Source: Tubiluchus corallicola
Lineage: Eukaryota; Priapulida; Priapulimorpha; Priapulimorphida; Tubiluchidae
Assembly: GCA_030141605.1 (NCBI GenBank)
Contig: JAQGDQ010002374.1
Location: 62,001 to 126,000 of the forward strand
Length of the DNA stretch: 64,000 nucleotides
Direction: 5' to 3'
This document shows positions 414 through 41,400 of this stretch, piece by piece. The notes below the pieces were generated by a model. The model made no database searches. It saw only the letters and a program-made list of their open reading frames with translations, and was not told the origin of the DNA. How positions within the stretch are numbered: the first letter of the stretch is position 1; every line of letters begins with the position of its first letter. Made by a program: the position numbers and the translations under genes.

Positions 414-998
414 TTCAATTGAACCGATTCTTCGCTTGGTTCATTGTGATGAAACACCTCAAGCTCAACTTTGGGCATTGTTGACTCTTGCCAATTTTAC
501 AAAAGTTGATCGTGAGTGTTAATGAAATTAATTAATGCTTGACTTTTTGTAAAATTACAGTCTGTTTTTGCTTGGTAATATTGATTACACTTATCTTTTA
601 ATTTTGATATTAAAATAAAATGAAAATCTGTTACTACACCTCAAAGTGAATTAAGTTTGGAAATTGTCTGTTTTCTGTGTGTGATGTTTTAACTCCCCTA
701 GCATTTCTGTTAAGGTTAGCCTTTCTATATTACTGTGACTACTCTTTCATTCTGATCCATATTAACATTACAGCCAACTACTGTTGTTGTTTAATTAGAT
801 TATAGACAGCTCTTTGTTGATTAAGTTGTGTTTTGCATTGCAGCTAGCAACTATTGCGGATTGATTAAAGCCGAAGGTGGATTGGAGCTGCTGGATGCAC
901 TGATACGTCATCCGGCTGCATACAGTCACATAAAGCGACTTGCTCGCATTATTCTGGCTAATTATCGTGCATATTGGGATTTAACTGATCAAAATAGT
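414..998 (+). CDS. Two exons of a ZYG11/ZER1-like armadillo-repeat protein, C-terminal part (partial gene)
   Basis: Exons 414-511 and 844-998. The first follows a tttatttgcag acceptor and ends at a GTGAGT donor; the second follows ttttgcattgcag and ends at GTAAGT. The split codon restores one frame. The protein contains AQLWALLTLANFTKVD and then YCGLIKAEGGLELLDALI, which resembles the last armadillo repeats of ZYG11B/ZER1, the substrate receptors of CUL2 E3 ligases that recognise N-terminal glycine degrons. The start and leucine-rich-repeat part lie before the window. If the donor at 999 is not used, the frame stays open to a stop at 1080-1082, giving a plausible gene end. If it is used, the phase-0 end fits the phase-0 acceptor of the ankyrin exon at 2667. 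Family assignment is from remembered motifs. Confidence 0.6.
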
Positions 999-2666
999 GT
1001 AAGTGCATTAGATTATCCATTCAGTGAGTCCCGTAACACTATTAAGAAGTGTTGCTTAATGCCTGTTCACAACTGTCAATGAACCTCCTGTCACTGACAG
1101 CTGTTATCAACTATCCTGTCCTAACCAAAGGCTACATTATGTGCTAAAATGTGTTTAAAAGGCTATCAAGGCTATCCTTCTAAGACGAGGCACTAAACCA
1201 GCAGAGGTGTTTTTGTCACATTCGGAATACGTCATGTGTCATCATGTTAGTACATCATGCATCAACAAAATAAACATCCAGAGACAGTAAGGTGAATGAA
1301 TTGAGTGAGTGTTGGACCCGATGGTCACAGATACTTGTACTGAACAGGATCAGTGATGCTTAACTGACAATGTTGTTAAACTGGCAGTTGTTAAACAATC
1401 GGCTGTTATTTGAAACTATTCATTGTGTTTGTTGCTTTTTCACTTTTTTTGCTCGTCATTAGTACTGGCTCTATAGCTTGTTCAATGATGTTTTCATTAT
1501 CAAATATATCTATTAATTTAAAGGACAAGAAAAGGGGTGCCTAAAGTAGGTTTCACAAAAATGGTCTTAAAAATTGTATTAGTTTGAATCAAATTTAATG
1601 CGTATATCGTATTCGGCATCATGTACGCTATACATGAAACAAAAAAAGATGTAAAGGATAGAAGGGGTTTGCTTCATCATTGCTCTGCACATTCATGCTA
1701 TTATTTTAATAATCCAGAGGTTACTGTTTCGAATACAGGGTAATGCCCACTTTTTTACTTTACAGTTTTCTTTCAAGTTCAGTTGAGGTGTGACTGAATA
1801 AAGTGTCATACTCAATGACTGAAAATGTCATAAATAATTTACTGTCATGGTGTCCGAGAGTATAGATACTTTTTGCATTGATCTCACCATGCCTTGTTAT
1901 TTTGTAACTGTGTTTTCATTTCAATAAAATCGAAAGTTGACATTTCTTGACCAGACGGCTGTTGGTCTCAATCTGTAAAAAAACTGGCTCCATTATATCT
2001 GCTATGCATGAATACGTAGCATTCATTTCAGTTTTCAGGCCCTAGAGAAAATGCACATGACCTATATTCATCCACTCACTAGGCGTCGACTCCACATAGC
2101 AATATACGCAGAAACTGTGACCCGAGTTCAACGTATTTAGCTAATAGGGTAAAGCCAATGGAACTCGGGGACGCCTGCCCATTTGTGACCTTTGACATCT
2201 TTCACAGCTTTGGCCTGTGGCGATCGGGTCACATTCAAAGCTAAATAAACACCACGAGAGACAAAAATAAAAAAGTATAAAAGGTCAAAATGGACATAAT
2301 AAAAATTCGGGTAAATCAAGAAGATACTGCTTTGCAGCAATTTCTCAAAAAAAACAATTTGTAGAAAGTTTGCACATTATTTGTCATCAGCAGATGGGTC
2401 TAACATGTTTGTCTTTGCACAGGCAAATGTTCACCAGACTATGCAGATTGAGACGGTGTAAATTTCAGTATCTTATTAATGCTTTTCACTCCAGCTAATC
2501 AAAATAGTCAAAAACAAAGTGGAAGAAAGCTTTAATTTTTCAAACTTTGAACTTTTTTGATTTAAACTCAAGTCACAATGACTGATCACTAAAAATTTAA
2601 CAATTTGCAAAAATTGCAGGTCAAAACTTAGTTTCTATAATTTCTCTGATTTTAAACTGGTTTCAG
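999..2666. other. Stretch between ZYG11-like and ankyrin exons
   Basis: Either an intron (GTAAGT donor at 999, tttcag acceptor at 2661-2666) or an intergenic space. No starter exon for the ankyrin gene could be identified. A GC-richer patch at about 2080-2240 is unexplained. Confidence 0.45.
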
Positions 2667-5600
2667 ATCGATGAGAGAGACGAAAATGGTTGGACAAAAC
2701 TCTATGGAGCAGTAAGGCTTAATAATGCTGAGCAAGTAAAACGGTTAATAAAAGATCGTGCTGATGTCAATGTTAAAGATGAAGATGGAGGCACAGCATT
2801 GATGTGGGCAGTCTGGGAAGATAATGAACACATTGTTAGTTTGCTACTAGAAGCAGGTGCAGATCCTAACTTGACTAACAATCGTGGTATTACAGCATTG
2901 ATGGATGCAGCCAGGAATGATAATGAACTCCTTGTTAGTTTGCTACTAGAAGCAGGTGCAGATCCTAACTTGACTAACAATGATGGTAGTACAGCTTTGA
3001 TGCTTGCAGCCAGGAAAGATAAAGAACGCAATGTTAGTTTGCTACTAGAAGCAGGTGCACATCCTAATTTGACTGACAATCGTGGTTGGACAGCGTTGAT
3101 GCATGCAGCCATGAATGGTAAAGAACGCAATGTTAGTTTGCTACTAGAAGCAGGTGCACATCCTAACTTGACTGACAATGATGGTCAGACAGCATTGATG
3201 TTTGCAGTCTGGGAAGATAAAGAACTCAGTGTTAGTTTGCTACTAGAAGCAGGTGCACATCCTAACTTGACTGACAATGATGGTAGAACAGCATTGATGG
3301 ATGCAGCCAGGAATGATAAAGAACTCAGTGTTAGTTTGCTACTAGAAGCAGGTGCACATCCTAACTTGACTGACAATGATGGTAGAACAGCATTGATGGA
3401 TGCAGCCATGAATGGTAAAGAACGCAATGTTAGTTTGCTACTAGAAGCAGGTGCACATCCTAACTTGACTGACAATGATGGTCAGACAGCATTGATGTTT
3501 GCAGTCTGGGAAGATAATGAACGCATTGTTAGTTTGCTACTAGAAGCAGGTGCACATCCTAACTTGACTGACAATGATGGTCAGACAGCATTGATGTTTG
3601 CAGTCTGGGAAGATAAAGAACGCATTGTTCGTTTGCTACTAGAAGCAGGTGCAGATCCTAACTTGACTGACAATGATGGTTGGACCACACTGCATTCTGC
3701 TGCTGATTATGAAGTAACTTTGGAATCAGGAGTGGTGCAATCATTAATGAAACATGGCGTTGATATTAACAAAGTAGACAATTCTGGCAAGACTGCAGTG
3801 CAGTTGTACATTGAAAAAGCAACAAATGAAACCCTAAACAAAGAACTACGAGAGACTATTGGTTATCTGCTAACATGTCTGTATGTAACAGCCAATAAAA
3901 AGACTGAGTACGATAGCCAGTTTATTACATTTAAAACGAAATGCATTAATTTGTTACGAGAGGAAGACTTGGATCATAAATCGGTGAAAGAAGTACTTGA
4001 GCTCCCTGGCATAGGACGTCTTCCACCAACCCATGAAAATCATGTTATCAGAACAAAAATTGAAGCCTTAGCTGCCAGAGTATGTACTAAGTTGGGAGAA
4101 ATGGATGAAAGGTTTGATTCTTTCTACAAGCTAGTAGACAGCAGCGCTTGTGGAATCAAAGCTGGGTTACCGGATGAATTTGATTTTTTCATCATCTTGA
4201 AAAGCTTATGCGAGGGTCTGAATGTCGAAGAAACCGACAAAGCAGGATATGTAAAAATTACGTTAGGTGACAAAGCAATGAGAATGTTTCCCGAGTTTGT
4301 TGAAAATGGCAGGTTTTCTTTTGACAAGTTCAAGAGCTATTTTACTATTCTTTTATCCCGGGCTATGAATGCAATTTTCCTGGAAGACTCGGAAATAACG
4401 GAATCTTTCAAGTTCGATAAGGTAGTGTGGAATAAGGTTTGTACTTGCTTCAAACTGATGTACATCTGGAGGCTACCTGGAGGCTGTTACGATGCACCAC
4501 TACCTATCTCATTAGACATGACACCTGCTATAGAAGTACCAGGAAAACCGGCAGGGATGTTGACATCATGTGACCCCGGCTCAGTTACCTCTTATCACCT
4601 TGTATTTAAGCCATGTCCTGATGCAGAGCAAAATTACTGTGCCGTATCTATGGCTGTGTATGAAAGTCAACTTGTTGGAAACATGAGTGAGCATAAGAAA
4701 GAAGGAATAATTCTGGCAAAAGCTTTGCTCAATGATGACCTTTATTCCAAGCAAGCGGAAACCATTGAGAACCTAAGGCTAAAATATTCCAAGGACGATG
4801 TCATGCGTGCCATTTATACGCTGAAATTCCATCCCAGCCTCCTGATAGATTCTTACGTAGTGAAAACAGCTTCAATTCATGAAGCCAGCTGCCATCAGGA
4901 TGACTCTCACTGGAAAGGCAATGAAGTTTTGAATCCAGTTTTAGGCATATTTACCTACATTTCAGACTGCTGCAAAAAAAAGCACATGCGTCACCACCTT
5001 CTTGAAGATGTAAATGTTCTTCAAGAACATGCCATTAAGCGTATTGGTGATATGTCTCTTCTGTATTTGATGAGCATATGCGCAGAAGATATATGTGCTC
5101 ATGTCAGAAAAGATGCTGTACCAGCTAACCTTGGGGATTTCAACTGGGAGCAACTTCATCAGTGGTCTCATGCACGGTTGAGATTTGTGCAGGTATTTTA
5201 TAGATTATTAGCAACATTAGTGTTTTTAGATCATTTCAAACTTTTGCTTGCATTGTTAACATTTCTGCATTTTTCACGTTTTAAATAATTTAAAATCTTC
5301 ATTGATTATTTTCAGTAAATCTGTTCTGCTACACAAGGTACATGCGGGAAATTTGTAAAATTGTTTTTCGTTTAATTTTTGAAAGACTAGAATAACATCT
5401 GTGCTGTTCTATGTGCAAAAAATTTATACTGGGTAGTGCAAAACAGAATCCCAACAGAGCAAGGCAGCATTGAATGGAAATTGTCTGAACAATATTTTGT
5501 AATGATTTCTTCTGTATTATTAACCTTTGCCTTCGTACCCCAAACTAGCAAAGGTTCTTTACCATCCTGCACACAGTGGAAGAGATTTTCATGTTATGTA

Positions 5601-8600
5601 TTATGATCAATAATGCTAAAATTCTTGGTTAAATGTACGACTTCATGTGCTCGTAATGTGTGTTGCGTGATCCCTAATACGAGATGCGTTTACAACAATT
5701 ACATTTAAACACGTGGAAATGCTTCAATGTGTACTTATTACTTAATACATCATCCAAATGCGTGATGCGTACTCACACAATGCGATGGCTATCGTCTGAA
5801 TACGCATCACGCATTACGAGCACATGTAGTCGTAGCTTTACAGAGTAAAACTAATAATTTTTAATTCCGCTCCATTGTTAGAATTGGTATGACTCCATAC
5901 TGATTTTGTGTACCATTGTACATAATGGCATGGCCTTTGGGAAAATTACACTAAAAAAAACTAAAATTAGCTCTGATTTGCCGAAAAAAAATCCTATTTT
6001 TACGTTTGACAAAAATGGGTTCAATTTGTTAATAGGTTATATTTTCGTGTTGTACAGTTGTTGTTTTTTAAAGATATTGTTTAAATTATTTAAAAATCTT
6101 TCGAAATGTCTAAAACAGCTGCTATGAAAGATAGTTTGTTTCCATGTGTTACAAATGAATGTAACTTTTGCTAAACTTTTACACTATTATCAAGATCTTA
6201 GTAAAATCTCTTTTTGCCAAGTCATTGTGCCACATACATGATGGAGAGGGATTGGCAGCAAGAGCTTTCATTACTGTGTCAAAAAGTTGTTTTAGACGTT
6301 TAATTTTAGGCAGTTTGACATGTTTTCATTTCTAAAATAATTGCTTTTCTGTCAGCTGTCAAATCTAGTTTAAAATCTTATCACCTTGTATTTAAGCCAT
6401 GTCCTGATGCAGAGCAAAATTACTGTGCCGTATCTATGGCTGTGCATGAAAGTCAACTTGTTGGAAACATGAGTGAGCATAAGAAAGAAGGAATAATTCT
6501 GGCAAAAGCTTTGCTCAATGATGACCTTTATTCCAAGCAAGCGGAAACCATTGAGAACCTAAGGCTAAAATATTCCAAGGACGATGTCATGCTCGCCATT
6601 TATACGCTGAAATTCCATCCCAGCCTCCTGATAGATTCTTACGTAGTGAAAACAGCTTCAATTCATGAAGCCAGCTGCCATCAGGATGACTCTCACTGGA
6701 AAGGCAATGAAGTTTTGAATCGAGTTTTAGGCATATTTACCTACATTTTAGAATGCTGCAAAGAAAAGCACATGCCTCACCACTTTCTTCAAGGTGTAAA
6801 TGTACTTGAAGAACATGCCAAGAAGCATATTCGTGTTGATGGTGTGTCTCTTTTGGATTTGATGAGCATATGCGCAGAAGGCATTTGTACTCATGTCAGA
6901 AAAGACGCTGTACCAGCTAACCTTGGGGTTCCCAATTGGGAGCAACTTGATCAGTGGTCTCATGCACGGTTGGAATTTGTGCAGGTATTTTATAGATTAT
7001 TAGCAACATTAGTGTTTTAGATCATTTCAAACTTTTGCTTGCATTGATAAACTTTCAGCATTTTTCATGTTTTAAATGACTTAAAATCTTCATTGATTAT
7101 TTTCAGTAAATCTCTTCTGCTACACAAGGTACATGCGGGAAATCTGTAAAATTGTTTTTCGTTTATTTTTTGGAAGATTAAAATAACATCTGTGCTGCTC
7201 TACTTGCAAAACAATTATACTGGGTAGTGCAAAACAGAATCCCAACTGAACAAGTCAGCATTGAATGGAAATTGCCTGAACAATATTTTGTAATGATTTC
7301 TACTGTATTATTAACCTTTGCCTTCGTACCCCACACTAGCAAAGGTTATTTACCATCCTGCACACAGTGGAAGAGATTTTCATGTTATGATGTATTATGA
7401 TCAATAATGCTAAAATTCTTCGTTAAATGTACGACTTCATGTGCTCGTAATGTGTGATGCGTGATCCCTAATACGAGATGCGTTTACAACAATTACATTT
7501 AAACACGTGGAAATGCTTCAATGTGTACTTAATACGTAATCCGTAATGCATAGTGCGTACTCACCCGAATGTGAAGGCTATCGTCTGAATACGCATCACA
7601 CATTACGAGCACATGTAGTCGTAGCTTTACAGAGTAAAACCAATAATTTTTAATTCCGCTGCATTGTTAGAATTGGTATGACTCCATACTGATTTTGTGT
7701 ACCATTGTACATAATGGCATGGCCTTTGGGAAAATTAAACTAAAAAAACTAAAATTAGCTCTGATTTGCGGAAAAAAATCCTAATTTTACGATTGTCAAA
7801 AACAGATTCAATTTGTAAATACGTTATATTTTCGTGTTGTACAGTTGTTATTTTTTAAATATATTGTTTGAATTATTTAAAAATCTTTCGAACTGTCTAA
7901 AACATCTGCTATGAAAGATAGTCTGTTTCCAAGTGTTACAAATGAATGTAACTTTTGCTAAACTTTTACACTGTTATCAAAATCTTAGTAAAATGTCTTT
8001 TTGCCAAGTCGTTGTGCCACATACATGATGGAGAGGGATTGGCAGCAAGAGCTTTCATTACTATGTTAAAAAGTTGTTTTAGACGTTTAATTTTAGACAG
8101 TTTGACATGCTTTCATTTCAGAAATAATTGTTATTCTGTCAGCTGTAAAGTCTAGTTTAAAATCTTTCTGTGAACAAAGAATATTGTCCTCTGTTACAAA
8201 GTTATATATTGTTGTTTTCAATTTTAATTCTTTTATTTCAGATGTATGTGCTCTGCAATGATGAGGCATGGTTAGATGCCGGTCACGAGCAAAGAATGTT
8301 ACGTTTGCTTAAAAGGCTCCATGAGTTGCGTTTTTCAGAACCAACTGTAGGTCTAATTAACTGGAACTTCTTATCCAAGGTTTGTATAAGAGTTTTGTAG
8401 TAAATTTACAGTTTTGTAATAATATTTGTGCAGCAATATTGAGACATATTTAAGGCAGCAATGTTTAAATTCCAGACACGAGCAAGTAATACTACGTTTC
8501 CTTAAAAGGCTCCATGGTTTGTTACTTGTAGAACCACGTCTATCTCCTATTTTTTTTAACAGGCGCATCTTATGTGAGTTTTGTGGAAGAGTTTTGTAAT

Positions 8601-15786: not shown

Positions 15787-16945
15787 TCATTTCTCAAGTC
15801 TCGGATTGCGTATTCGATGTGCAGTAGGGTCTTCATAGATGAAGTTTCCATAGTGGGTTGTAGGTTGTCTTGACCTGCGGGGGTAAGGTCGGGGAGGACT
15901 GGACGGCAACTGGACGTCAACGGCTGCATTGGCTTTCAAAAAGGTTAGAGGTGTGCTAGAATGGGTCTTGCTTGATACGAGAACAGGATTAATAGAAGTT
16001 GGAGAGAGAACAGGATCCGGTAACGTAGGTTGCGAGGTTACATTATGATCGGATTGAAACGATTTGGGTTGACTATCAACAGTTTTTCTATTGTTTATCT
16101 CAAGATTACACTCAACATTGCTCCTAGAATGGTTCACCTGGGTAGACTGCTCGCCCGAAAGAGGCGTGCGTACACTATCGCCGGCCTTTTCAGAGGAGTC
16201 CTCAGCAATTGCTGAACTGGAGCTACCAGGAAGCCATTCGTTGATGAGTTGTCGAGTTGATTCGTCGGGAATAAATTCAGCAGAGTCGGCTATGTCAAGT
16301 AAACTAAGAGTAGTTGAGCTGGGAAAATCAACTCTTTTGGGAGTGGATGTTCGTGGTTTTGGTATAGGCGGAGAGAAGGTGGGCAATGAAAGCCGTACAT
16401 CACCGTTGGATGAATTGTCATGGAGAAGGGAAAGTGGATCACGAATAGGAGTTAAGGCTGGCATGGAGGGATTAAGTAGTTCTGGAATTTGGGCTGGAAA
16501 ACTCGATGCATTTTCATTGTGCTCATCATTATAATCAGCTATTCTGCATGGTGAATATGGAGGTGGCGGCAATCCGAAAGAATCGAGAGATACAGAACGA
16601 TCAACTGCTGTCAGCTGTGGCTCGAGTTCAATGTTTTGTTCAGTTTTAGATTTATCGGTACCCGTTGGATCGGCATTGGATTTATCGGCACTAACTTCAG
16701 GATCAAGGCTATAAGTTACTGTAGCTTGGCTGTCAGATAATTCATTGAGTGAAGGCGTTTCACCAGGTGTCCAGGAAAATCCAGTGGCTGGTGTATAACG
16801 CCACAAACGATCTGCATGAACAATTTTGCATCTTTGTCTTGGTCCCGGCAAACGTATACGATAGACAACATCTGAGAGACGTGTTATGATTTCATAAGGT
16901 CCCTGCCAATCAGACTGAAGCTTTGGACTGCGACCGATTTTACGC
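15787..16945 (-). pseudogene. Ty3/Gypsy-like polyprotein, 3' end (integrase C-terminus and tail), truncated by the assembly gap
   Basis: The open frame enters from the N gap and ends at 15787. Its first part has SDWQGPYEIITRLSDVVYRI and KIVHADRLWRYT, the GPY/F module that follows the integrase core in Ty3/Gypsy elements. About 300 Ser/Pro-rich residues follow, ending with PRPYPRRSRQPTTHYGNFIY, a basic end typical of such polyproteins. Protease, reverse transcriptase, RNase H and the integrase catalytic core would be upstream, but beyond the gap the sequence belongs to a BEL/Pao element, so the two are different elements joined at or near the gap. Confidence 0.72.
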
Positions 16946-17251
16946 NNNNNNNNNNNNNNNNNNNNNNNNNNNNNNNNNNNNNNNNNNNNNNNNNNNNNNN
17001 NNNNNNNNNNNNNNNNNNNNNNNNNNNNNNNNNNNNNNNNNNNNNNNNNNNNNNNNNNNNNNNNNNNNNNNNNNNNNNNNNNNNNNNNNNNNNNNNNNNN
17101 NNNNNNNNNNNNNNNNNNNNNNNNNNNNNNNNNNNNNNNNNNNNNNNNNNNNNNNNNNNNNNNNNNNNNNNNNNNNNNNNNNNNNNNNNNNNNNNNNNNN
17201 NNNNNNNNNNNNNNNNNNNNNNNNNNNNNNNNNNNNNNNNNNNNNNNNNNN
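16946..17251. other. Assembly gap (306 N)
   Basis: A run of N between the Gypsy-like integrase end and the LTR of the BEL/Pao element. Frames that read through it are artefacts. Confidence 1.
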
Positions 17252-17470
17252 TGTTTTGAAGTAATCCCAAAAACTTTTATTTTAAATTCAATATTACAGA
17301 ACAAATCAAATACATGGCGATTTCTTCGCTTCCAATGAGTAGACTAAAAAACGTGCTCAATTCTGATTGGTTGACCTACTAAATGCATATAACGAAGCCA
17401 AGTTTCACAGGCAATTCTAAATAAGTACAACTTTAGATTAAAGGGCAAGCAGAGAGAATTCTTCCGAACA
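17252..17470 (-). mobile_element. 3' LTR of the BEL/Pao element (partial, runs into the gap)
   Basis: On the minus strand a polypurine tract GAGGGGGGAAA is directly followed by TGTTCGGAAGAATTC at 17470, the form expected for an LTR start. AATAAA on the minus strand lies at about 17276-17281. The LTR end is in the N gap. It is about 340 bp downstream of the pol stop. Confidence 0.7.
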
Positions 17471-17810
17471 TTTCCCCCCTCTTTGATAAGTTTTAACAAA
17501 ACATATCAACAAAATCTATTAATCTAGTCAAAATCAACAGTGTAACTAGTTCTACTAAACTACTTAATTTTCCATTTAACCATCAATACACATAGCAGTG
17601 GAAGCTAAATTTTAAGTTTTGAGTTACAAGTTTCAAGTTATTCTAACATTCGGTAATTAAAATTTTCCATTCTGTGCTACATGACGTTTACGTTTAACTA
17701 CAAAAAACAAATTTCTTGCAAACTTTAGCAAGCAGTACGAAAACGAATAATCGCAAAATCATAGTAATAATTTTCTGTGGTGCTGATCATCCGCAGTGTT
17801 TGTAGAAACT

Positions 17811-20800
17811 TCACTTTTGATTGTCGGGTTTTTCTTCCTCAATGAACTCCAGTGGACAGAGTTTGGTGATTGGTCGTGTAAGTTCACTATTGCCAATCTT
17901 CAGTTTTGCAACTCGAGTGTGCCCGTCGCTACCAGGGTAGACTTCTAGTATGCGTCCCATAGGCCACTGTCCTCTAGGTGTATTTGGAGATATAACAAGT
18001 ACGATGTCGTTTACTTGAATGTCTCTCTGCACACGATTCCATTTACTGCGTCTGTTGAGTCCTGGAAGCCACTCTCGCATCCATCTTTTCCAAAAATGAC
18101 GTATTAATTCTTGGACACGCCTCCAACGCTTTCTAGGATTAAAGTCTGTGTTATCCACTGATTCGGGCGCGAATTGTCCACCAACTTGCCCAAATAAAAA
18201 ATGGTTTGGCGTCAAGGGAATGTCATCTTTCTCATCTGCTGTTTGGTACGTCAATGGTCTCGAATTTAATAGTGCTTCTGCTCCGGTAAATGCTGTCATG
18301 AGTTCTTCATCCGTGACGTCAGCGTTTCCGAGAATAGCGAATATGGCTCGTTTTGAGGCTTTTACCATTATTTCATAGGCTCCTCCAAAATGTGGTGCTA
18401 ATGGTGGGTTAAAATGCCACTTGATACCTTGGTTTGCAGATGTCCGTTGAATCTTCTCTTCATCTAATTTCACTAATAGACTTTGTAGTTCATTGTTCGC
18501 TCCTACGAAGTTTAAACCGTTGTCAGAAAGCATCTCAGTTGGCAAACCTCTGCGATTGACCATGCGATAGAAGGCGTTTAAGAACGAATCAGTGTCAAGG
18601 CCAAAGGCTATCTCTAAATGCACTGCCCGCGATGTCATACAAGTGAAGAGGCAAAGATAGCGTTTCTGTCGACGTTTTCCTCTTCCTTGAACTGTAATAA
18701 ACGGTCCAGCAAAATCCACTGCTGTCCTAGCAAAAGCTCGTAAAGGCAGTTTCACTCTGATCTCTGGAATTGGTGCCATCACTTGCGTTGCAGATTGAGC
18801 TTTCTGCTTACGGCATTTTGCACATTCTTTCTCAAATTTTCTGATTTCTTCCCTGCCAGAGATTATCCAATATCGAGCTGACAGTGAAGCAAGAGTCTGA
18901 TTCACCCCTATTGCATGATGAGCTTTTTCATGATGATGTCCAATTATCAACTTGGTTACCCAGTTATTCTTAGGCAGAATGATCGGATGGCGTGCATCGT
19001 ACGATAAGTATTCTGCGTGAATGAGACGTCCTTCGCTGCGAATAACTCCATCCTCGTCTAATCTAGGTTGCAGCTTTAATAAATTGCTATTCTTCGGCAA
19101 CTGTTGGTTATTCTGGAGTAATTTGTATTCCAGTGAAAAGGCTTCACGTTGCATGTTTCGTACAATGCTTATCTCAACGTCTTGCAATTCGTCTGGCTCT
19201 AATTCTCCAAACTTCTTGTGCAGTTTGGAATCACGACAGTTTTCTAGAAAACGATGTACCCATGCTTGTACTCGAATCAGTCGTAACCAACTGGAAAACC
19301 GCTCAGGTTTTAGACGCCAATTGTCATCCTGGTTTTGTATTGGTCCAGTAATGTAAGTTTCAGCAGTTTCACGATTAGATACATGTCTAATTTTTGTTGG
19401 CTTTCTAAGTTCTGCGTCATCCATTTGCTGAAATTCTATAATTTTAGATGGCCATTCTTGCTCGTTCTTGTGAAGAAATTTCGGTCCTCTCCACCATTTT
19501 TCATCATTAATAAGTTGATTTGCAGTTTTCCCTCTAGTCACAGCATCAGCAGCATTCTCTTTTGATGTGACATGCCGCCATTGATGTGGAAATGTTTGAC
19601 TCTGAATTTCGCCTATACGATTAGCGATGAACGGTTTCAGTGTGCGACTTCTACTCCTTATCCACCATAAAACGTTCATACTATCACACCAAAAAATTGC
19701 ATTTTTTAGTTCCATGTTTAGTGCACCAGCTATGTGGTCCGTAAGCCTTAGCCCCAGTATTGCAGCCATCATTTCTAGTCGTGGAATACTAATTGCAATC
19801 AGAGGGGCTACACGAGACTTTGCTGCGATGAGTCGACACGATATAGTTCCGTCAGGATAGGTACAACGTAGATAGCTAACTGCTGCATAGGCTTCTTGCG
19901 ATGCATCTACAAATGTGTGCAGTGTGCATGAATCTGTACCCCCCTCCGTGACCAAACATCTCGGAATATGAATTTCTGGCATCTCGATCAATTCTGTAAA
20001 CCACATTTTGGCTTTCCATTGCAAGTTTTCGTCAAGCTCGTCGTCCCATCCTAAACCGGCTGTCCACATTTCCTGCATGATAATTTTCCCTCGAATGAGA
20101 AATGCTGCCAGAAATCCCAATGGATCAAATATTGTAGCGATCTTCCTCAGTATATTACGCTTGGTAAATAAGAAATTGTCGATGTCTATGGATTTTGGTT
20201 TGAAGGTGAAAACATCTTCCTTTGCCAGCCACAGTACTCCAAGTGTTTTTATACTCGGAAGAAGTCCTTCATCTAAGTTAATTTCTGATGCTCTCTCCTC
20301 TTGTGGTATCTCGGCTAACACTACAGGTGAATTTGATAACCATTTACGAGCTCGCATGCCAGCCTTTTCCCAAAGACTGGACAACTGACTGTAGAGCTCT
20401 ATGCCTTGTTCATCGTCGATGGCTGAATCCATGCTATCGTCCATATACGTCGAGTAGAGTACGGTTTCTGTAGCCATTGGATACTGCAATTGAAATTTTT
20501 CTGCATGCTTCCGCGTCACAAATTGTGCAAGAAATGGTGATGCATTTACCCCAAAAACGACTCTTTCGAATTCATATTGGTCAGGCTGTCTGTTTTCGAA
20601 ATTCCTCCAGAGAAATCTATGGTAAACCCTGTCCTCAGGAACAATTTTAATCATCAAGTACATCTCTGCAATGTCCGATACCAATGCTACAGGATTTTTA
20701 CGAAAACGAAGCAAGACATCGAATAAGTCTCTCTGCAGCTTTGGTCCGGGACTAATGACATCATTCAGCGAGACTCCATCGCATTCTTCTGACGAATCAA

Positions 20801-22304
20801 ACACCATGCGTACTTTTGTTGTCTCTCTATCTGGTCTGATTATTGGAAAATGGGGTAAAAACCATCGTCCGCATTGCTGATCTTCTAATGATGTCACTTG
20901 ACGTATGAAGCCTTTCTTCACATACTGCTGAATATTATCTTCGTATATTTTTGCCACTTCTGGATTTTTTAGTAGACGTTTTTCGGTGCTCTGTAGTCTT
21001 TTCAGTGCCTTTTCGTAGCTCAATTTCGCACTAGGCAGCTCAACTGAATTATCTTTCCATGGTATGCAAACCTCATAATGTCCATCCGTCATTTTCATGG
21101 ATTTCTCTACTTTAGCTAAAGCGTTCTCTGCATCAATATCCAGAATGCGGCAACTTGGCATCGTGCCAGCTGAATCTATCTGCCAAAATTGTTGCAACAT
21201 CTCATCAAGCCGAATTTCACTAGCTTCAGCCGAAAAATACGTGTGAACGAAATTGGTGCGAACACGATAACTGTCGCAATCATTTGGTTGTCCTATACAT
21301 GTCCATCCGAGTGGAGTTAATCTAGCTATTGGCTCCCCTGGCTTTCCACGAACATCTCTGTACGAATAATGTAAATCGGTGTAATCGCTGCCAATCAACA
21401 TGTCTACGATGAGGCGACGTCCTAGTTTTGGAAATTCAATAGCTTTCAAATGGCCCCACTTGTGACTGCATTCATTCCAGTTTATTACATTCAAATTTCC
21501 GGTAACTCTTTCAGCCGTTAATGCGCTGAATTTCATGTCCAGCTGGCCGTTGACACTCTGTAGATTAAATGTTACAGGTCTTGTTTCGAAAACTTTTGTT
21601 TGCCCATTTAAAACGCTGACGTTAATCTGCTGAGTCTCACCCTCAAGTCCTAACTCTGCTGCTACATCCGAGTTGATGTACGATCTTGTGCTGGCATCAT
21701 CTAATAATGCGTTGATTGTCAATTTACGATTTCCATTTTTCACGATTATTGGTATAGTTCGCAACATAATTTTTTCAACTATCTTGGGATTGCCAGATGT
21801 CATTGTCACAGCCGAATTTTGTTTGTCAGGTGGTATGGTCGATGTTCTACTGCGATGCGATGAACCATCTTCAGCTACAGGTTTGATTGATGACGGTGTA
21901 GAACCAACAGTATTGTTGTAGTTCTTGTTGGTCGCGGCTAAATGCGAATTATTTTCTCTAACTTCTTTTGACGAATGTAGAAATCTGTTATGATTGTATT
22001 TGCAGCTGTCTATGCCACAAACTCTGCTACGTGGACAGGTTTGACCTTGGTGATCTGACCCCAGACAGCGATAGCATAAGTTCAACCGCTTTGCAGAGTC
22101 CCATCTTTGTGGAATGCTCATCTTGCGAAACTCATCACACCTCCAAACACCGTGAGGCCCATTGCAAACTTTGCATAATCTTTGTGATTGACTACTTCTG
22201 GAAACTGCAGCTTCTTGGTTATCACCTGTTGTCCCAAAGTACGATCTCGGTTTTGGTTTTAAACCGATTTTTTTCTCTTTTTCTGTAATACTTCATTATT
22301 TATC
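17811..22304 (-). mobile_element. BEL/Pao retrotransposon, gag end plus intact pol
   Basis: An uninterrupted frame on the minus strand: 1436 codons from the first Met at 22121, open up to about 22304. Order: two CCHC zinc knuckles (CKVCNGPHGVWRC and CYRCLGSDHQGQTC), an A17-type aspartic protease around LLDDAST, reverse transcriptase with YMDDS (about residue 559), RNase H (TFVDASQEAY), an integrase zinc-binding HH..CC region, integrase core acids in TAVDFAGP, SDNGLNFVG and GGAYE, and a C-terminal DUF5641-like segment. This is a pol of normal length. The gag N-terminus and the 5' LTR are missing, so it is 5'-truncated and probably not autonomous, although pol shows no stops or frameshifts, a sign of recent insertion. 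It lies antisense to the host genes. Confidence 0.95.
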
Positions 22305-32448: not shown

Positions 32449-35400
32449 TAGTACTGTTAATGTATTTAAGTTAATCAGCATTTATTTTTATGTGTACAAA
32501 AGTTTTTAGGGTCGGTTTCCTGGGATTTGATTTAATATACATCATCATATACATTGTAAGTTTACTTAGCAAATTAAAAGCACATGCACATCAGACACAG
32601 TGCACACTTAAATTATGTCAGAGAACAGCGAACATCTTTCGTGCTTAGGTTTCCAACATGTTCTATACATCTCATTTTACAATCATACTTCTAAGTACAT
32701 TAAAATTATTTACATGTTCAATAACATAATTTTTCTAGTTCACAACATGAATAACTGACAAAGTTACAAGTACATCTACGAGCAATACTATTTGTGCAGC
32801 TTGCACATTAAATAAATGGCACTAATGCTTGACAATATCAAGTCACATCGAGTAAATGGTACTAACATACTAGCAATAACATAACCCTACAATAATTTCA
32901 TTCATATTTTATCAACTCTTAAGGCAACTTTAGCTGACAAATATACACGCATCCATGAACCTTTCTTTAGGAAATCGAAGCAATACGAGATGTAAAACAT
33001 AAAAAAAAGTGAATTGAATAATACTTATAGTTTGGAAGAGCAAATGTGCATGCACCATAACGACTAACCTTGGATTTACACAGACAACACATCAGATTGA
33101 ATTTACACATAATATTGAAATTACACACAGTGTTAGTGACACTAACTCTATTACTAATACTGAGTAAAACAATACACTAATGTGATGATTTTTGGAGACT
33201 ATCTCATCAATGCTTTCTGAGGTTGAAGCAGCAAGGACTTTATCATTCAGGTCACTTGGCTTCATGAAGCCCGTTATATATCACTTGAGCAGAACTAGAG
33301 CTGGGAATACCCAATTGCTAGCAAACGAAAAGCAGTACATGTAGCTCCAGCAACTTTTATCTTATAGATACATGACTTACATTTTTGCTGCAAGAAACCA
33401 TAAATATCTTTGTATTCAAAATGTGACAAAACATCTGCAGCAAGTAACTCATTTTACAAAGGTTTACCCAAAGCTTATCATGAGTTATACGATAGTCTTA
33501 ACATGCTTCCATAACTTGTGCAACAAATATGGATAAATTACGCTACATTTTAATAAAGAAGTGGTGCAAGGTTCAAACAATTAAACAAAATTAGCAATAT
33601 AGTACACTACACTGTGCAGTATAAGTATAAGTGAGTTTTGCAGACAATTTTGTAAATATAAAAGTTTTCATTAGCCACTTACAAGAAGTGCGACATTTCC
33701 TTCTTAATGGTGATAGCAGAACAGCCTTCACCTACTGTCTCTTTGTTGCTTTCACCCAAATATGGTGAAAGGTAAAACTCTTCTATGTTACATTCTTCAA
33801 TACAGAAGTTAGCATCATCTACATTACTACCTTCTTCATGCACAGGGCTGGAGGTATCATCCTCCACAAGGGAGTAATCTAGGGGTTCTTGCTTAATAGG
33901 AATTTTGTCTAAAACTATTTCGTTTGTGTTATGCAAATAATTGAATTCAGGAGTTGGTATTGGGGCATCATTAACTGTCTGTGACATATTGCGCTGTTCT
34001 TGCAAATGAGGAATTCTTTGCACTTTGACACTTACTGACAATTCTTTTCCTTTATGGCATGCTATGTGCCTAACTAAATGTGCTTCCCTACTGAATGTAC
34101 TTGGACAAAGATTACATTTGTAAACGGGTTTTGCACGATGAGAATACAGGTGATTTTTCAAATTCCACGAATGAGTAAACAATTTGTTGCACTCGGGACA
34201 CTTGTGTGTCTTTCGTGGTTTGCTGGCAGTTCCTTTCACAAGTTGTGTTTTGTCACATATGGCAGTTTTGTGGGCCTCTTTGTGTTGTTTTAAAAGTGTC
34301 AGGAACTTGAAACTGGCAGCACATTGTTCGCAGTCATAATTCTTACTGGCAGTAGAGCATTTCTTAGTCTTACCAACTGAATGAGCACTTTGCTTATGTT
34401 GCAGTAGCTGTTCCTTTACTGAAAACTTTTCACCGCATTTATTACAAGAAAACACTTTTTCCCTTGTATGAATCCTACTGTGTGCCCAAAGAGTTTTCTT
34501 TGTTTTGAAAGACGCATTGCATTTTGTGCACACATGAGGTCTGCCTTCAACATGAATTTCTCTATGATGACAAAGGCTACTAGCATTTTTAAAAACTTTC
34601 CCACACACATTACAAACATGTTCTTTACTAGTATGTTTGTGAATTTTCATATGTATACGTAATAAATGTTTTGAGGTATAAGTGTTGTTGCATACATTGC
34701 ACATGTGTTCTTTTTCTTTGTGAGTTCTCATATGTTCACGTAGTAACTGCAATGAGGTAAATGTGTTGTGGCACAAGTTGCAACGCAGGTCTTCAAGTGT
34801 TGCATGTCTAACAAGCATATGTTTTGCTAATCCTTGTTTTGATTCATATTGTGCACTACACTGTGAACAAGGATACGGTCTATCAAATTCAATGTAGCCA
34901 TCAGCAGATAATTTCTCTCTCTCATGTAATGCAGTATGAGCTGACAAAAGCGATGCTCTCTTAAACTTTTCGCCACATTGTTCACATGTATATGCACTTT
35001 CTTGTACATGACTTTCAGAATGTGATCTTAGTTCTTCCTCTTCACTAAAGCTTTGTAAGCACACATCACACTGATGCATGAGTGTAGGCTGGTGACATTT
35101 CATATGTGTTTTACGCGAACGTCCGTGACGGAATTCTGCATCACAGATTGGGCACTTGAAAGGCTTACTATCAGTATGGACAATTTCATGTGCTCGGAGA
35201 TGTGTGGCCTTTCTAAATGCTTTTGGACAAGAAGTGCATTTAAATGGTTTCAACCTTGAAGCCGGGTTTCTGTGGCATTGTTGATGCCTCCTTAAGTGAC
35301 TCAGCTGTCTAAAACTTGTGCAACACGTGGTGCACTCATACGGTTTTTCACCAGTGTGAATTCGTTTATGAGACTGCAATGAAGTATGTGTTTTAAAAGC

Positions 35401-38400
35401 AGATTGGCAACTATTACATTGGTATGGTCGATCAGTTACATGTTTTACTTTGTGCGTTAATAAGTGTCTATGTTGTCGAAAACGCCTATTACACACGGTA
35501 CACGAGTAAGGCTTTTCGCCCGAGTGAATCATCATGTGCAACTTTAGATGACCATTTTGTGAGAACATCTTATGGCAGGTCTCACATTCATAAGGCCGTT
35601 CATTTGTGTGTGTTCTTGTATGGATCTTCAGCGTGCTCCAATGTCTGAATTGCTTATTGCATATCTGACACTGGTACGGTTTTAAATCTCCGTGAATCAT
35701 CATGTGTGACCTAAGATAAGCCGGCAGCTTAAAAGCAGCTGAGCACACTTGGCATTGAAATGGTTTTACATCTGAATGAACTAACTGATGGTTTTTCAAA
35801 TAAGTGGCTTGTTTAAACTTAGCACTGCATTGTAGACATGCAAATGGTCTTTCATTAGAATGAGTTATCTTGTGATGTTTTAACCCATCTTTTGACTTAA
35901 ATGCTCTGTTACACACATCACATATAAAGGGCTTGATGTCAGTATGTATACGACTGTGACTTTTCAAAGAAGTACCTGTTTTGAAAGCAGCACCACATAC
36001 TGTACAAGGATATCCTCTGTAGTCAGAATGAACAGTCATGTGAACCTTCAAATGTGCTGATTGTCGGAAACAGGCACTGCATGTATCACACTCAAAGGGC
36101 TTAGAATCAGTGTGAGTGATTTTATGTGATTTCAGCCCATTACGGGTTTTGAATGACTTACCACATCTTGCACAAATGAATGGGCGTACATCGCTGTGCA
36201 CCTGTTTGTGAGAATTAAGAGCAGTAGTTGTCTTGAAAGCAGCACCACATATCTGACATTGATGTGGTCTTTCATCAGTGTGCACTAGCATGTGAGTTCT
36301 TAAATTTGCAGGTTGTTTAAAGCATGCAGAACAGGTATCACATTTAAATGGTTTCAAATCTGAATGCCTTGTCTGCATGTGACACTTGAGATGTCCTGTT
36401 TGGCGAAACTTTGCATTGCACAGCTCGCATGAATAAGGTCGAATGTCAGTGTGTGTTCTTTTATGTAAGCGCAGTGCTTCCGGCAGCTTGAAATCTTTGG
36501 AACATATATCACAAATGTGTGGCCGTAAATCTGTATGTATCTTCTTATGCGAATTAAGGTAGGTATTTGTCTTAAATGATGCTTGACAAACGTCACAAGT
36601 CCATTTTCTTTCTTCAGAATGGACAACCATATGGCTTCTCAAGTAACTTGCTAATTTAAAAGAAGCGTTACATGTGTCACAGCTATATGGCTTCAGGTCT
36701 GAGTGAGTTGTCATATGTACCTTCACATGACCAATTTGTCTGAATCGAGCACCGCAAATCTTGCAGCTATATGGCTTTTCTCCTGTGTGAGTTTTTTTAT
36801 GAGCTCTCAAGCCTGTGGAAAACTTGAATGCTTTGTCACACAAGTCACAGGAATAGGGTCTCAGGTCAGTGTGAATACGTTTATGGGTGCTCAGAGATGT
36901 TGATGTTTTGAATGCAGCACCACACACTGCACAAGGGAAAGGTCTTTCATCTGAATGTACTGACATGTGAACCTTTAAATGGCCAGACTGTTTAAAACAT
37001 GCATCACATGTGTCACATTTAAAAGGTTTTGAGTCAGAATGTGTAAGAAGATGTATTTTTAAATGTCCTCCTTGTCGAAATCGTCTAAAACATATCTCAC
37101 ATTGGTATGGCTTCTCAGATGTATGAGTCTTTTTATGAGCTTTCAGCCCATCTGTAAACTTGAATCCCTTGCCACAGATATCACAGATATGAGGTCTTAC
37201 ATCACTGTGTGTTTTTTTATGAATGGCTAGGTATGATGCAGTTTTAAAAGCTGATTCACATATATCACAAATGTGATTTCTCTCGTCTGTATGAACTGTC
37301 ATATGAACTTTGAGATGAGCAGACTGCTTGAAGGCAGCTTGACATGTATCACACGAGAAAGGTTTTTCATTGGTGTGTATTCGTTTATGGAGTTTCAATC
37401 CATCTGGTAACTTGAAATCTTTTCCACATATTTCGCAGTTATATGGTCTCAAATCTGTGTGAATTCGTTTATGACTAGTGAGGTAACTAACTGTTTTAAA
37501 AGCTGCCTGACATATATCACAAACGTGTGGTCTTACATCAGTATGCACAATCATGTGACTTTTTAAATTGGAGGATTGCTTAAAACTCATACTGCATGTA
37601 TCACATGCAAATGGACGTTCATCTGTGTGTGTGTATTTGTGTGACTTTAGCCCTTCTCTAGTTTTAAAAGCTTTGCCACAAGTGGAGCAGATATGAGGCT
37701 TAATGTCACTGTGAACCCGTTTGTGACTGTTTAATGATGTGGTTGTTTTAAAAGCTGTTCCGCATATGGGGCAACAGTAAGCCCGAACATCAGAATGTAC
37801 TGTCATATGAGATTTCAAATTCCCGGACTGTTTAAAACAAGCATCACAAGTATCACATTTGAATGGTTTTGAATCTGAATGCGTAAGCATGTGTGCTTTA
37901 ACATGTGCAGTTTGCCGAAATTTCTGACCACATACATCACATGAAAACGGTCTTAGATTTGAATGTGTTCTCTTGTGAAGTTTCAGGGCATCAGGAAGCT
38001 TGAAGTCTTTTCCACACTGATCACAAATGTATGGTCTCAAATCTGTGTGAATTTTCTTATGTGAGCTAAGATAACTAGACGTTTTAAAAGCAGCTTGGCA
38101 AACGTCACATATCCATGGTCTTTCTTCAGTGTGAACAATCATGTGGGTTTTCAAATATGCTGCCAACTTGAAGCTAGCACTACAAGTGTCACATTTATAT
38201 GGCTTGAGATCAGAATGTGTAGCCATGTGAACTCGTACATGGGCAAGCTGCTTAAATGTTGAATGACAAATTTCACAAGCGTACGGTTTTTCATCACTAT
38301 GTGTACGTTTATGAAGTTTTAATGCATCGGGTGTTTTAAAATCTTTTCCACATTCACAAATGTAAGGCCTTATATCAGTGTGGATACGTTTGTGACTATG

Positions 38401-41400
38401 AAGGTATGCTTGTGTTTTAAAGGAGGCTTCACAAACATCACAAGTCCATGGACGTTCTTCAGTATGCACTACCATGTGGCTCTTTAAATTTCCTGCTTGC
38501 TTGAATTTGGCATGGCATGTATCACACTCAAAGGGTCTAGCATCTGTGTGTGAGTGTTTGTGTGACTTCAGTCCTTCTGATGTTTTAAATGCTTTTTCAC
38601 ATACGTCACAAATGTGTGGTTTAATATCACTGTGTATTCGTTTATGGCTGCTTAATGAAGTAGATGTTTTAAAAGTGGCCTCACAAATAGGACATGGATA
38701 AGGACGAATATCAGAATGTACGGCCATGTGGCTGCGCAAGTTTGCTGACTGTTTAAAACATGCATCACATGTGTCACATTTAAATGGCTTAGAATCGGAA
38801 TGTATAGTTTGCATGTGACATTTAAGATGTCCTGACTGCCTGAATCTCATACCACATAAACTGCAGAAGTATGGCTTCTCACCTGTGTGTGTACGTTTAT
38901 GCAATTTCAGTCCATCAGGTGTCTTGAAGTCTTTTCCACATTCACAAATGTATGGACGCAGTTCTGTATGAATACGCTTATGTGTGGTAAGATATGCCAT
39001 AGTTTTAAAAGCAGAGTCACATATATCACATGTATAATTTCTTTCTTCCGAATGCACCACCATGTGATATTTCAAGTTTGTGGATTGCTTAAATTTAGCA
39101 TGACATGTATCACATTCAAACGGACGTTCATCCATATGACTAATCTGGTGAGATTTCAATCCGTCTGGTGTTTTGAAAGCATTGCCACATGTAGCACATA
39201 TATAAGGCTTTATATCAGTATGTATTCTTTTATGACTGTTTAGAGCAGTAGATGTTTTAAAAGCAGAATAACAAATATCACATGAGTACTTTCTTTCTTC
39301 ACTGTGTACAGCAAGATGTGATTTTAAGTGAGCTGACTGCTTAAAACAAGCATCACAGGTGTCACACTTATAAGGTTTAGCATCTGAATGGGTTAACATG
39401 TGTGCCTTTACGTGGGCTGTTTGCCGGAATTTTGCACCACATATATTACACGAGTATGGTTTTTCATCGGAATGTGTCTTCTTATGTGCCTTTAAGCCAT
39501 CGGGCAGCTTGAAATCCTTGTAACAAATATCACATTTGTATGGTCTCATATCAGTGTGAATGCGCCTATGATTGGCAAGATAAACAGCAGTTTTAAAAGC
39601 TGATCCACAAATGTCACAAAAATGATTTCTTTCATCTGAATGTACAAGCATGTGACTTCTGAGATAAGCAGCTTGCTTGAATCGTGCATGGCATGTATCG
39701 CACTCAAATGGGCGTTCATTTGTGTGTGTCTTTTTGTGAGATTGTAATCCCTCCTTAAATTTAAAAGATTTTTCACAGACATCACATTGAAATGGACGAG
39801 CAGTCGTGTGTATTCTAATGTGATTCTGGAGATAGTATGATGTTTTAAAGGCAGCTTGACATGTTGGGCATGCGTACGGTCGAACATCTGTATGCACTGC
39901 CATATGACTTTTCAAATTGCCAGCCTGTCGAAAACTAGCATGGCATGTATCGCAAGAGAAAGGTCTCTCATTTGTATGAATTCGCCTGTGAGTTTTTAAT
40001 CCAACAGCAAATTTGAATGATTTCCCACATACATCACATGAATGAGGTTTAATGTCTGTATGGATTTTCTTGTGTGAGTTTAATGATGATTGTGTTTTAA
40101 ATGCAGCTCCACAAATTTCACAAGCAAATGGTCGTGATTCAGTGTGAACAGCCATGTGAACTTTTAAATGCGCAGACTGTCGGAAACGAGATTCGCAGGA
40201 ATCACATTTATAGGGTTTCAAATCAGAATGAGTTCTGACATGCATCTTTAAATGAGCAATTTGCTTAAACTGTGCAGAGCATTGGTCACAAGAATATGGT
40301 TTCTCGTTTGAATGAGTTCGTGCATGAGCTCGCAAGTTTGATGACATTTTAAAACCTTTTCCACAAATGTGGCAAATATGAGGTCGAATGTCTGTGTGAA
40401 TTTTGCTGTGGTTATGGAGGTAACTGGCTGTTTTAAAAGTAGCTCCACATGTAGAACAACAATAGGGTCGTATTTCAGTGTGAACTAGCATATGGCTTTT
40501 GAGATAACCAGCCAACTTAAAACATGCTCCACACTGGTCACATGAAAAAGGTTTGTCAGCTGAGTGTGTTTTCTTGTGAGATTTTAGTCCTTCCGAAAAT
40601 TTAAAGGCTCTGTTGCATACGTCACATACATATGGCTTCAGGTCCGTGTGAATGCGCTTATGACTACTGAGTGAAGTTGATGTTTTAAATGCCGCACCAC
40701 AAATATGACAAGGAAATGGTCGCACATCGCTATGAACAGCCATGTGAACTTTCAAGTGGGATGACTGTTTAAAGCGTGCATCACAAGTGTCACAGCAATA
40801 AGGTTTGTGAGTACTATGTGTAAGTAGATGAGTTTTGAGGTGAGGCTGCTGCTTAAAGCGTGCATGACAATGGCGACATTCATATGGCTTTTCATCTGTG
40901 TGAGTTTTCTCGTGCGCTTTCAATCCATCTGGTGTTTTAAATGTTTTTCCACATGTACAGCTATATGGACGCAAATCTGTATGTATTCGCTTGTGGCTTT
41001 GCAAATAACTAAACGTTTTAAAAGCTGATTGGCAAATGTCACATACATGTGGCCTTTCATCTGTGTGAACGGTTTGGTGACTCTTTAAGTTTCCTGGTTG
41101 CCTAAAACTGGCACCACAAGAATCACATTTATATGGTTTCGAGTCTGCATGTATTGACAAATGAACTTTCAAGTGTCCTGTTTGTTTAAATCGCTTTGAG
41201 CAGATTTGACACTGGTATGGCTTTTCGTTAGAGTGAGTTCTCTTATGAACTGTTAGATTTGCAGCGATTCGAAAGTCTTTTCCACATTCATCACAAACGT
41301 GAGGTTTAAGATGGGTGTGTACTTTAATGTGGCTATTGAAGAATGATTCAGTTTTAAATGTAGCGAAACAAGTTTGACAAGTATAGGGTCTATTTTCGTT

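Follow-up and report, generated by a model that had tools for sequence, protein, structure and literature searches.

Does an exon that joins ankyrin repeats to a cGAS-like enzyme in the priapulid Tubiluchus corallicola belong to an innate-immune sensor, and which of its parts would do the recognising? The exon (2667..5192, plus strand; 842 codons) lies in the 64,000-nucleotide stretch of DNA analysed here (the window, bases 62001-126000 of contig C2100) and encodes an ankyrin array, a cGAS/Mab-21-type nucleotidyltransferase (NTase) and a Mab-21 C-lobe, as the first-pass annotation had observed from the letters alone; that observation is confirmed. The fusion within one exon held: the enclosing frame (2601-5288) is open over 895 aa, the acceptor TTTCAG stands before position 2667 in five of the six close copies compared (window, L003, L004, L008 and L060, with L005 differing), stops are found just 5' of this acceptor in L003 and L060, and the donor, CAG followed by GTATTTTATAGA at 5193, is present in all five copies compared (window, L002, L003, L004 and L005). 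The 12 ankyrin repeats (2667..3836, plus strand), readable by eye, gave an Ank_2 match at E=4.9e-82, and the HMM search that the annotation had proposed as a check placed both enzyme parts above the Pfam cut-off of 24.1 bits: the Mab-21 NTase model PF03281 (E=6.1e-6, 26.9 bits) and the Mab-21_C model PF20266 (E=5.1e-7, 30.2 bits). The latter, the HhH/H2TH-like C-terminal lobe, covers 4845..5051 on the plus strand (residues 337-405 of 3837-5285), and the two motifs pointed out earlier, PDEFD (4170-4184) and LDMTPAIEV (from 4512), are both present. A chance open frame was rejected, since at least 105 stretches of the 343.5-Mb assembly match (88 of 137 candidates scored). No in-frame ATG stands 5' of the repeats in the open frame 2601-5288, and a first exon with a start codon was not found.

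Exon-like stretches flank the gene on the plus strand (window 420-992 and 8243-8381), the upstream one being ARM-repeat-like by eye; the limits guessed for these flanking exons were rejected because their frames contain stops (Pfam scan). The ankyrin-fused exon may sit within an intron of another gene. Downstream, a tandem duplicate (6376..8166, plus strand; 93%) of 4590-6379 comprises a truncated 3' part of the gene and its 3' flank, with a remnant frame at 6319-7020. Further along, on the minus strand, 15787-22292 holds BEL/Pao-type retroelement frames (Pao peptidase A17 at 2.7e-51, DUF5641, DUF1758, RT and integrase pieces) with a stretch of N inside, and one frame of 3945 aa runs open through 33679-45516, the 1000 aa scanned being C2H2 zinc fingers.

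Compared singly with known structures, the enzyme domain barely matched (best E 0.021). A profile of 39 family domains matched cGAS (E=1.1e-14) in both the NTase core and the C-terminal helical bundle, as well as cGAS-like receptor 1 (4.1e-14) and MAB21L1 (4.5e-8). MAB21L1/2 are developmental proteins without an ankyrin part, and a pure Mab21L developmental protein was rejected as an identity for the gene, the 39-domain profile being closer to cGAS. An AlphaFold2 model of the enzyme domain, built from only two sequences, had a mean pLDDT of 36.5. On the plus strand, the first two catalytic acids (E-F-D, 4176..4184) align with the EFD of cGAS, and the third is the D of LDMTP (4515..4517; family alignment). 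This acidic triad ([DE]-h-D acids plus third D) was kept in all 41 aligned family frames including the window's, and the GS motif in 40 of the 41, preceded in each of the 40 by V or I ([QT] in 0/41); between the two acid motifs lie 108 residues, counted in the window copy only. No zinc ribbon was seen by eye in the aligned enzyme domains. The calculated pI exceeded 8.5 in 5 of the 39 family enzyme domains (median 5.92; window 5.84, whole domain). The earlier suggestion of an innate-immune sensor survived in part: a cGAS/Mab-21-type enzyme with the triad in its sequence, in what is plausibly an immune sensor, was borne out, while an active enzyme in the window copy, whose GS motif is altered, and the sensing of DNA or dsRNA, in view of the pI values, were not.

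How many such genes does the genome hold? Exact duplicates occur (L022-L024, L008/L009 and L028-L030); the assembly holds redundant copies, and haplotype copies may inflate the gene count. The family comparison covered 41 non-identical long frames, after removal of the fragments L006, L008, L009, L013 and L014 and of the exact duplicates L022, L023, L028 and L029; stretches from the genome search without an assigned locus and the members on C2234 and C1720 were left out, and the alignment of 39 domains is the same set minus L040 and L054. A Pfam scan (E <=0.001) found ankyrin in 37 of the 41 frames (the window row being entered without its ankyrin part), Mab-21_C in 38 and the Mab-21 NTase model in 16; NACHT and NB-ARC were absent from the 12 families that the 41 members matched at this threshold. 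Genome-wide the Mab-21_C model matched 51 times, 44 of them in open frames of at least 463 aa, a frame count that under-counts intron-split genes. Five of the other seven matches were a conventional separate Mab-21 frame of 375 aa on C162, which scores far higher against Mab-21 (1.2e-45), a 150-aa frame on C970 with the same score as C162, short frames on C2284 and C2025, and the truncated copy in the window. The remaining two, on C134 and C865 (L063 and L064), are Mab-21_C exons of a different type that lead into a hydrophobic, glycine-rich stretch and showed no ankyrin in the 1.4 kb inspected. The STING ligand-binding domain (STING_LBD) matched 22 times on 10 contigs (C460, C2192, C235, C414, C2160, C818, C1844, C2317, C1326 and C1793), several of the matches being neighbouring pairs on one contig. 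The gene content (introns, STING and Mab-21 domains, a BEL/Pao element) agrees with an animal source. At G000:C1996:48824-59620 about two dozen tandem pieces, mostly from the middle of the enzyme domain, make up a fragment array of the family, and in one ankyrin-fused frame models of retroviral aspartyl protease match as well (RVP 1.8e-5). Among 57 pattern stretches in viral contigs, none was confirmed as a relative.

Within the ankyrin array of the window gene, nine of the twelve repeats (2778..3668, plus strand) are near-identical units of 33 residues, visible in the DNA as a 99-bp period with 89% matches over 902 bp. Compared pairwise, they have a median identity of 0.87 at the DNA level and 0.76 at the protein level; their protein identity to the majority residue is 0.83 (0.78-0.86 in other arrays), and they vary most at positions 5, 10, 14, 19, 13, 3 and 18. 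Single-sequence AlphaFold2 on 2667-3836 yielded a best model of five with pTM 0.83 and mean pLDDT 92, the remaining four reaching 52-72; the series of helix pairs in the best model agrees with the 12 repeats, and its best PDB matches by Foldseek were DARPins and ankyrins (ankyrin-R/B). In each of the nine repeats of this model helix 1 spans positions 7-13 and helix 2 positions 17-25, so that positions 3 and 5 fall in the hairpin preceding helix 1, and positions 10, 13 and 14 within or just after helix 1. In the ankyrin fold, the hairpin/helix-1 side that carries these five positions is the concave one, which contacts the target. As contact set we used positions {2, 3, 5, 13, 14, 33}, the contact positions of DARPin libraries; since this set was named after the first per-position tables had been seen, the arrays examined later weigh most. 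DARPins bind via randomised positions on the concave face, according to the excerpted text of PMC8229355.

From one gene copy to the next, the arrays gain, lose and alter repeats at a faster pace than the enzyme evolves: repeat numbers differ (6 in L003, 12 in L059 and 1 each in L004 and L005, in one scan), while L002-L004 retain 78-85% identity to the window copy in their enzyme parts. The sister copy (L060 with L002), inverted on the same contig about 50 kb away, shares with the window gene its first repeat and the residues before it, and continues with 13 or more repeats of its own, all distinct in DNA; in L002 a stop lies between ankyrin and enzyme. Two further loci, L061 (C618:151380-153120, with two in-frame stops) and L062 (C1616:19700-21300), hold ankyrin arrays of a second type (type B), with no Mab-21 domain in the stretch inspected. 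Such turnover bears on what the arrays bind. Ankyrin repeats are general protein-binding scaffolds, any arms race is expected to change the binding face, and the array might accordingly bind a host partner (an adaptor, a self-inhibitor or a guarded protein), its surface changing to escape pathogen inhibitors; a repeat number that varies between close copies would be hard to reconcile with a fixed host partner, however, and the family has expanded, as receptors tend to. We regard a host partner as doubtful, if still worth serious thought, and prefer a receptor whose ligand itself changes.

Does the change fall where a receptor would touch its ligand? Unique repeats were compared pairwise, with no inference of ancestors, in set A (window, L002, L003, L004, L059 and L060; 41 unique repeats, those of L005 and L008 excluded) and in set B, a second repeat type (L017, L044 and L045; 19 repeats, those of L015 and L020 excluded). 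The pN/pS of set A was 1.40 overall, 3.30 at contact positions (bootstrap 2.76-3.99) and 0.94 at the rest (permutation p 3e-4); that of set B was 2.91 (2.12-4.08) at contact positions and 0.66 at the rest (p 4e-5), and the nine repeats of the window alone gave 4.40 (2.56-9.61) and 1.25 (p 0.007). Among the arrays examined later, contact pN/pS was 5.32 in L002 (3.63-8.35; p 0.002), 2.76 in L059 (2.21-3.45; p 4e-4), 3.86 in L062 (p 3e-4; three units of this array came up a second time, shifted by one residue, and such pairs mostly went uncounted via the identity threshold) and 2.13 in the stop-bearing L061 (p 0.015; stop-bearing repeats dropped), the last two being of the same repeat type as set B and hence no control with unrelated ankyrins. 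The top positions were 5, 14, 10, 3 and 13 in set A and 3, 5, 13, 2, 10, then 14 in set B; positions 33 and 2 vary little in several arrays, and position 10 varies strongly though outside the contact set. Moreover, of the 33 cyclic shifts the true register ranked top in sets A and B alike, even under a stricter choice of repeats, and 54 of 116 amino-acid steps fell at 6 of the 33 positions (minimum-step count, five arrays). Counter-cases were the two-repeat array L020 (0.09) and array L044 (0.96 overall).

Such ratios might also arise without positive selection, if the variable positions were unconstrained and synonymous divergence were kept low by gene conversion. The repeats of one array are indeed homogenised, with a pS in the window of 0.131 over codons 1-19 and 0.019 over codons 20-33; in set B, on the other hand, pS is even (0.116 and 0.134) and the contact value is still 2.91, and neutrality predicts about 1 at contact positions. 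A gene-to-gene comparison, which needs no internal repeats and is thus independent of their homogenisation, covered 12 young paralogues (the 13-gene omega set with L048 dropped; the repeat register of L042, two of whose six repeats lack the usual glycine, was set by hand). Their pN/pS was 3.57 (3.05-4.16) at contact positions, 0.91 (0.80-1.01) over the other ankyrin positions and 0.71 (0.63-0.79) in the enzyme; with ankyrin pS as the denominator, contact positions stood at 4.28, compared with 1.09 elsewhere (p 5e-5 by permutation; the five leading positions were 13, 3, 5, 10 and 14). Across the 13 genes, the ankyrin/N-terminal part had a median omega of 1.59 (66 pairs; dS 0.090) and the enzyme one of 0.73 (78 pairs; dS 0.088), with dS nearly the same in both. 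An account without selection is therefore improbable in our judgement, and we favour positive selection at the contact residues.

Thus, in tests that share genes and whose gene pairs and repeat pairs are non-independent, with gene conversion likely and some copies perhaps alternative haplotypes, the ankyrin contact positions of this family change far faster than the rest, a pattern that a fast-evolving immune sensor would be expected to show, and the enzyme domain is constrained. In blocks of 20 enzyme codons the ratio was 0.08 around DSYxxK, 0.41 around PDEFD, 0.65 around the third acid and 0.75 around GS; fast blocks were the helix before the GS block (1.36) and the C-terminal end (2.37). 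Fast change extends beyond the ankyrin face, as the 80 N-terminal residues preceding the repeats reached 1.70 in the 12 paralogues. The idea that the ankyrins form the regulatory or recognition part of the protein is supported, and the contact-position ratios sharpen it.

The window copy itself calls for separate judgement. Its GS site (4137..4142, plus strand) reads D-S (GAC AGC), the sole exception among the 41 frames, with the D codon GAC at 4137-4139 where the three close copies compared have GGC. With D for the GS glycine, the window copy may not work as an enzyme; it could be inactive, serve as a decoy or be turning into a pseudogene, and we file it only as a family member whose active-site GS is altered. 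The idea that it is a dead or dying duplicate without a function of its own, which is compatible with the explanation preferred below for the family, deserves real weight and is in our estimate not far short of an even chance: the change from G to D is unique among 41, a truncated tandem copy follows the gene, gene fragments and the stop-bearing sister L002 exist, and enzyme omega against the nearest copies is 0.65-0.74. Yet the copy keeps a long stop-free frame and the splice signals common to close copies, its enzyme omega against the more diverged L005 is 0.31, and its array retains the contact-site signature (4.40). Enzyme omega among the closest copies L002, L003 and L004 is 0.93-1.08, so that some of these may be decaying.

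What, then, would these proteins do? With confidence a little above even, we propose that they form a large, partly young family of ankyrin-fused cGAS-like receptors (cGLRs), in which a diversifying solenoid recognises and a cGAS-like enzyme signals, and which evolves like the repeats of fungal NLRs. The proposal builds on the observed domain order, sequence relation to cGAS, kept triad, many copies, repeat turnover, contact-position excess and STING-like domains. The concave face of the solenoid would bind a fast-changing ligand, and binding would release or assemble the attached nucleotidyltransferase; this ligand and the coupling of ankyrin to enzyme are what we infer, as are catalysis and product in the next step, in which the enzyme would make a cyclic nucleotide that STING-type proteins encoded in the same genome would detect. 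Germ-line diversification would come from near-identical repeats being gained, lost and exchanged, together with positive selection at contact residues, as in fungal NLRs. Taken together, the acidic pI and repeat behaviour like that of fungal NLRs favour, as far as sequence can tell, an ankyrin sensor with a cGAS-type output.

The ligand need not be microbial: the excerpted text of PMC4986451 links fungal ANK/TPR/WD repeats with this pattern to non-self recognition, and diversified arrays could likewise detect the tissue of other individuals. Coupling to a cGAS-type enzyme and the presence of STING domains point to antimicrobial sensing instead, and allorecognition seems to us distinctly improbable. 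Returning to the cGLR receptor family proposed above, a bolder form of it is that cGAS serves here as an anticipatory receptor repertoire: tens of genes would each pair a conserved second-messenger enzyme with an ankyrin library shuffled in the germ line, its contact residues under strong diversifying selection, and ligands other than nucleic acids (proteins, microbial or allogeneic) would thereby feed into STING; we advance this tentatively, as a minority expectation. If true, cGAS-type sensing extends beyond nucleic acids and the repeat diversification of fungal NLRs gains an animal counterpart.

Several known systems share parts of this design. MAB21L1/2 have the same two Pfam domains; the present family differs in being ankyrin-fused, and its profile matches them more weakly (4.5e-8 against 1e-14). 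RNase L also joins an ankyrin solenoid to an innate-immune effector, there a nuclease, and ranked 48 among the fold matches; its ankyrins bind 2-5A, not a fast-changing ligand. DARPins share the 33-residue repeats varied at contact positions and are engineered.

Closest are the cGLRs, which the family resembles in its NTase with GS (in the family) and acidic triad, its C-lobe and a gene expansion beside several STING genes. The excerpted text of Li et al. 2023 (PMC9980059) defines cGLRs by [DE]h[DE] with a further [DE] and by G[S/G], and in strict form by h[QT]GS with 50-90 residues between the acid motifs. The triad and homology over both NTase core and C-terminal bundle are present here; G[S/G] is present in the family but not in the window copy, and the family departs from the strict form, with V or I before GS in the 40 GS members and a spacing of 108 residues in the window copy. 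According to the same excerpt, 87% of surveyed cGLRs stand alone, whereas here ankyrin occurs in 37 of 41 scanned frames and frames of at least 463 aa account for 44 of the 51 Mab-21_C matches. The cGLR ligands identified in that survey are dsRNA and dsDNA, which the enzyme itself senses with its back face; the excerpt describes acidic cGLRs as having no known ligand and reports pI >8.5 (by another programme than ours) for nucleic-acid-sensing cGLRs, from which the present family differs in that most of its enzyme domains are acidic. Ankyrin-fused cGLRs, for example of the coral Stylophora, are already in print there, and the ANK-cGLR architecture is therefore not new; we class the family with the cGLRs, as a new variant. 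Diversification of ankyrins at contact sites was not found for any cGLR in the literature searches made, which apart from that survey turned up only papers of no apparent relevance.

In mode of evolution the nearest counterpart is the fungal NLRs, for which the excerpted text of Dyrka et al. 2014 (PMC4986451) describes ANK/TPR/WD repeats highly conserved internally, with turnover and positive selection on the concave face, and puts the share of such repeats in metazoans with high internal conservation at only 0.8%. Near-identical repeats, turnover in repeat number and contact-site pN/pS above 1 (sets A and B and the paralogues, by statistics simpler than the HyPhy used there) are common to the family and to the NLRs as excerpted. 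Against the threshold given there (>85% over at least 100 aa, by T-REKS) the window array is borderline, with protein identities of 0.76 pairwise and 0.83 to the majority. Turnover was between individuals in the fungi and is between gene copies here, and the repeats sit there on NACHT/NB-ARC and here on a cGAS-type enzyme. If the attached fast-evolving solenoid is the sensor, the ankyrin part could be used alone as bait, its contact residues telling where to look, and a bridge would be made between two modes of immunity that have been studied separately: second messengers of the cGAS/STING kind and receptors that, like fungal NLRs, shuffle their repeats.
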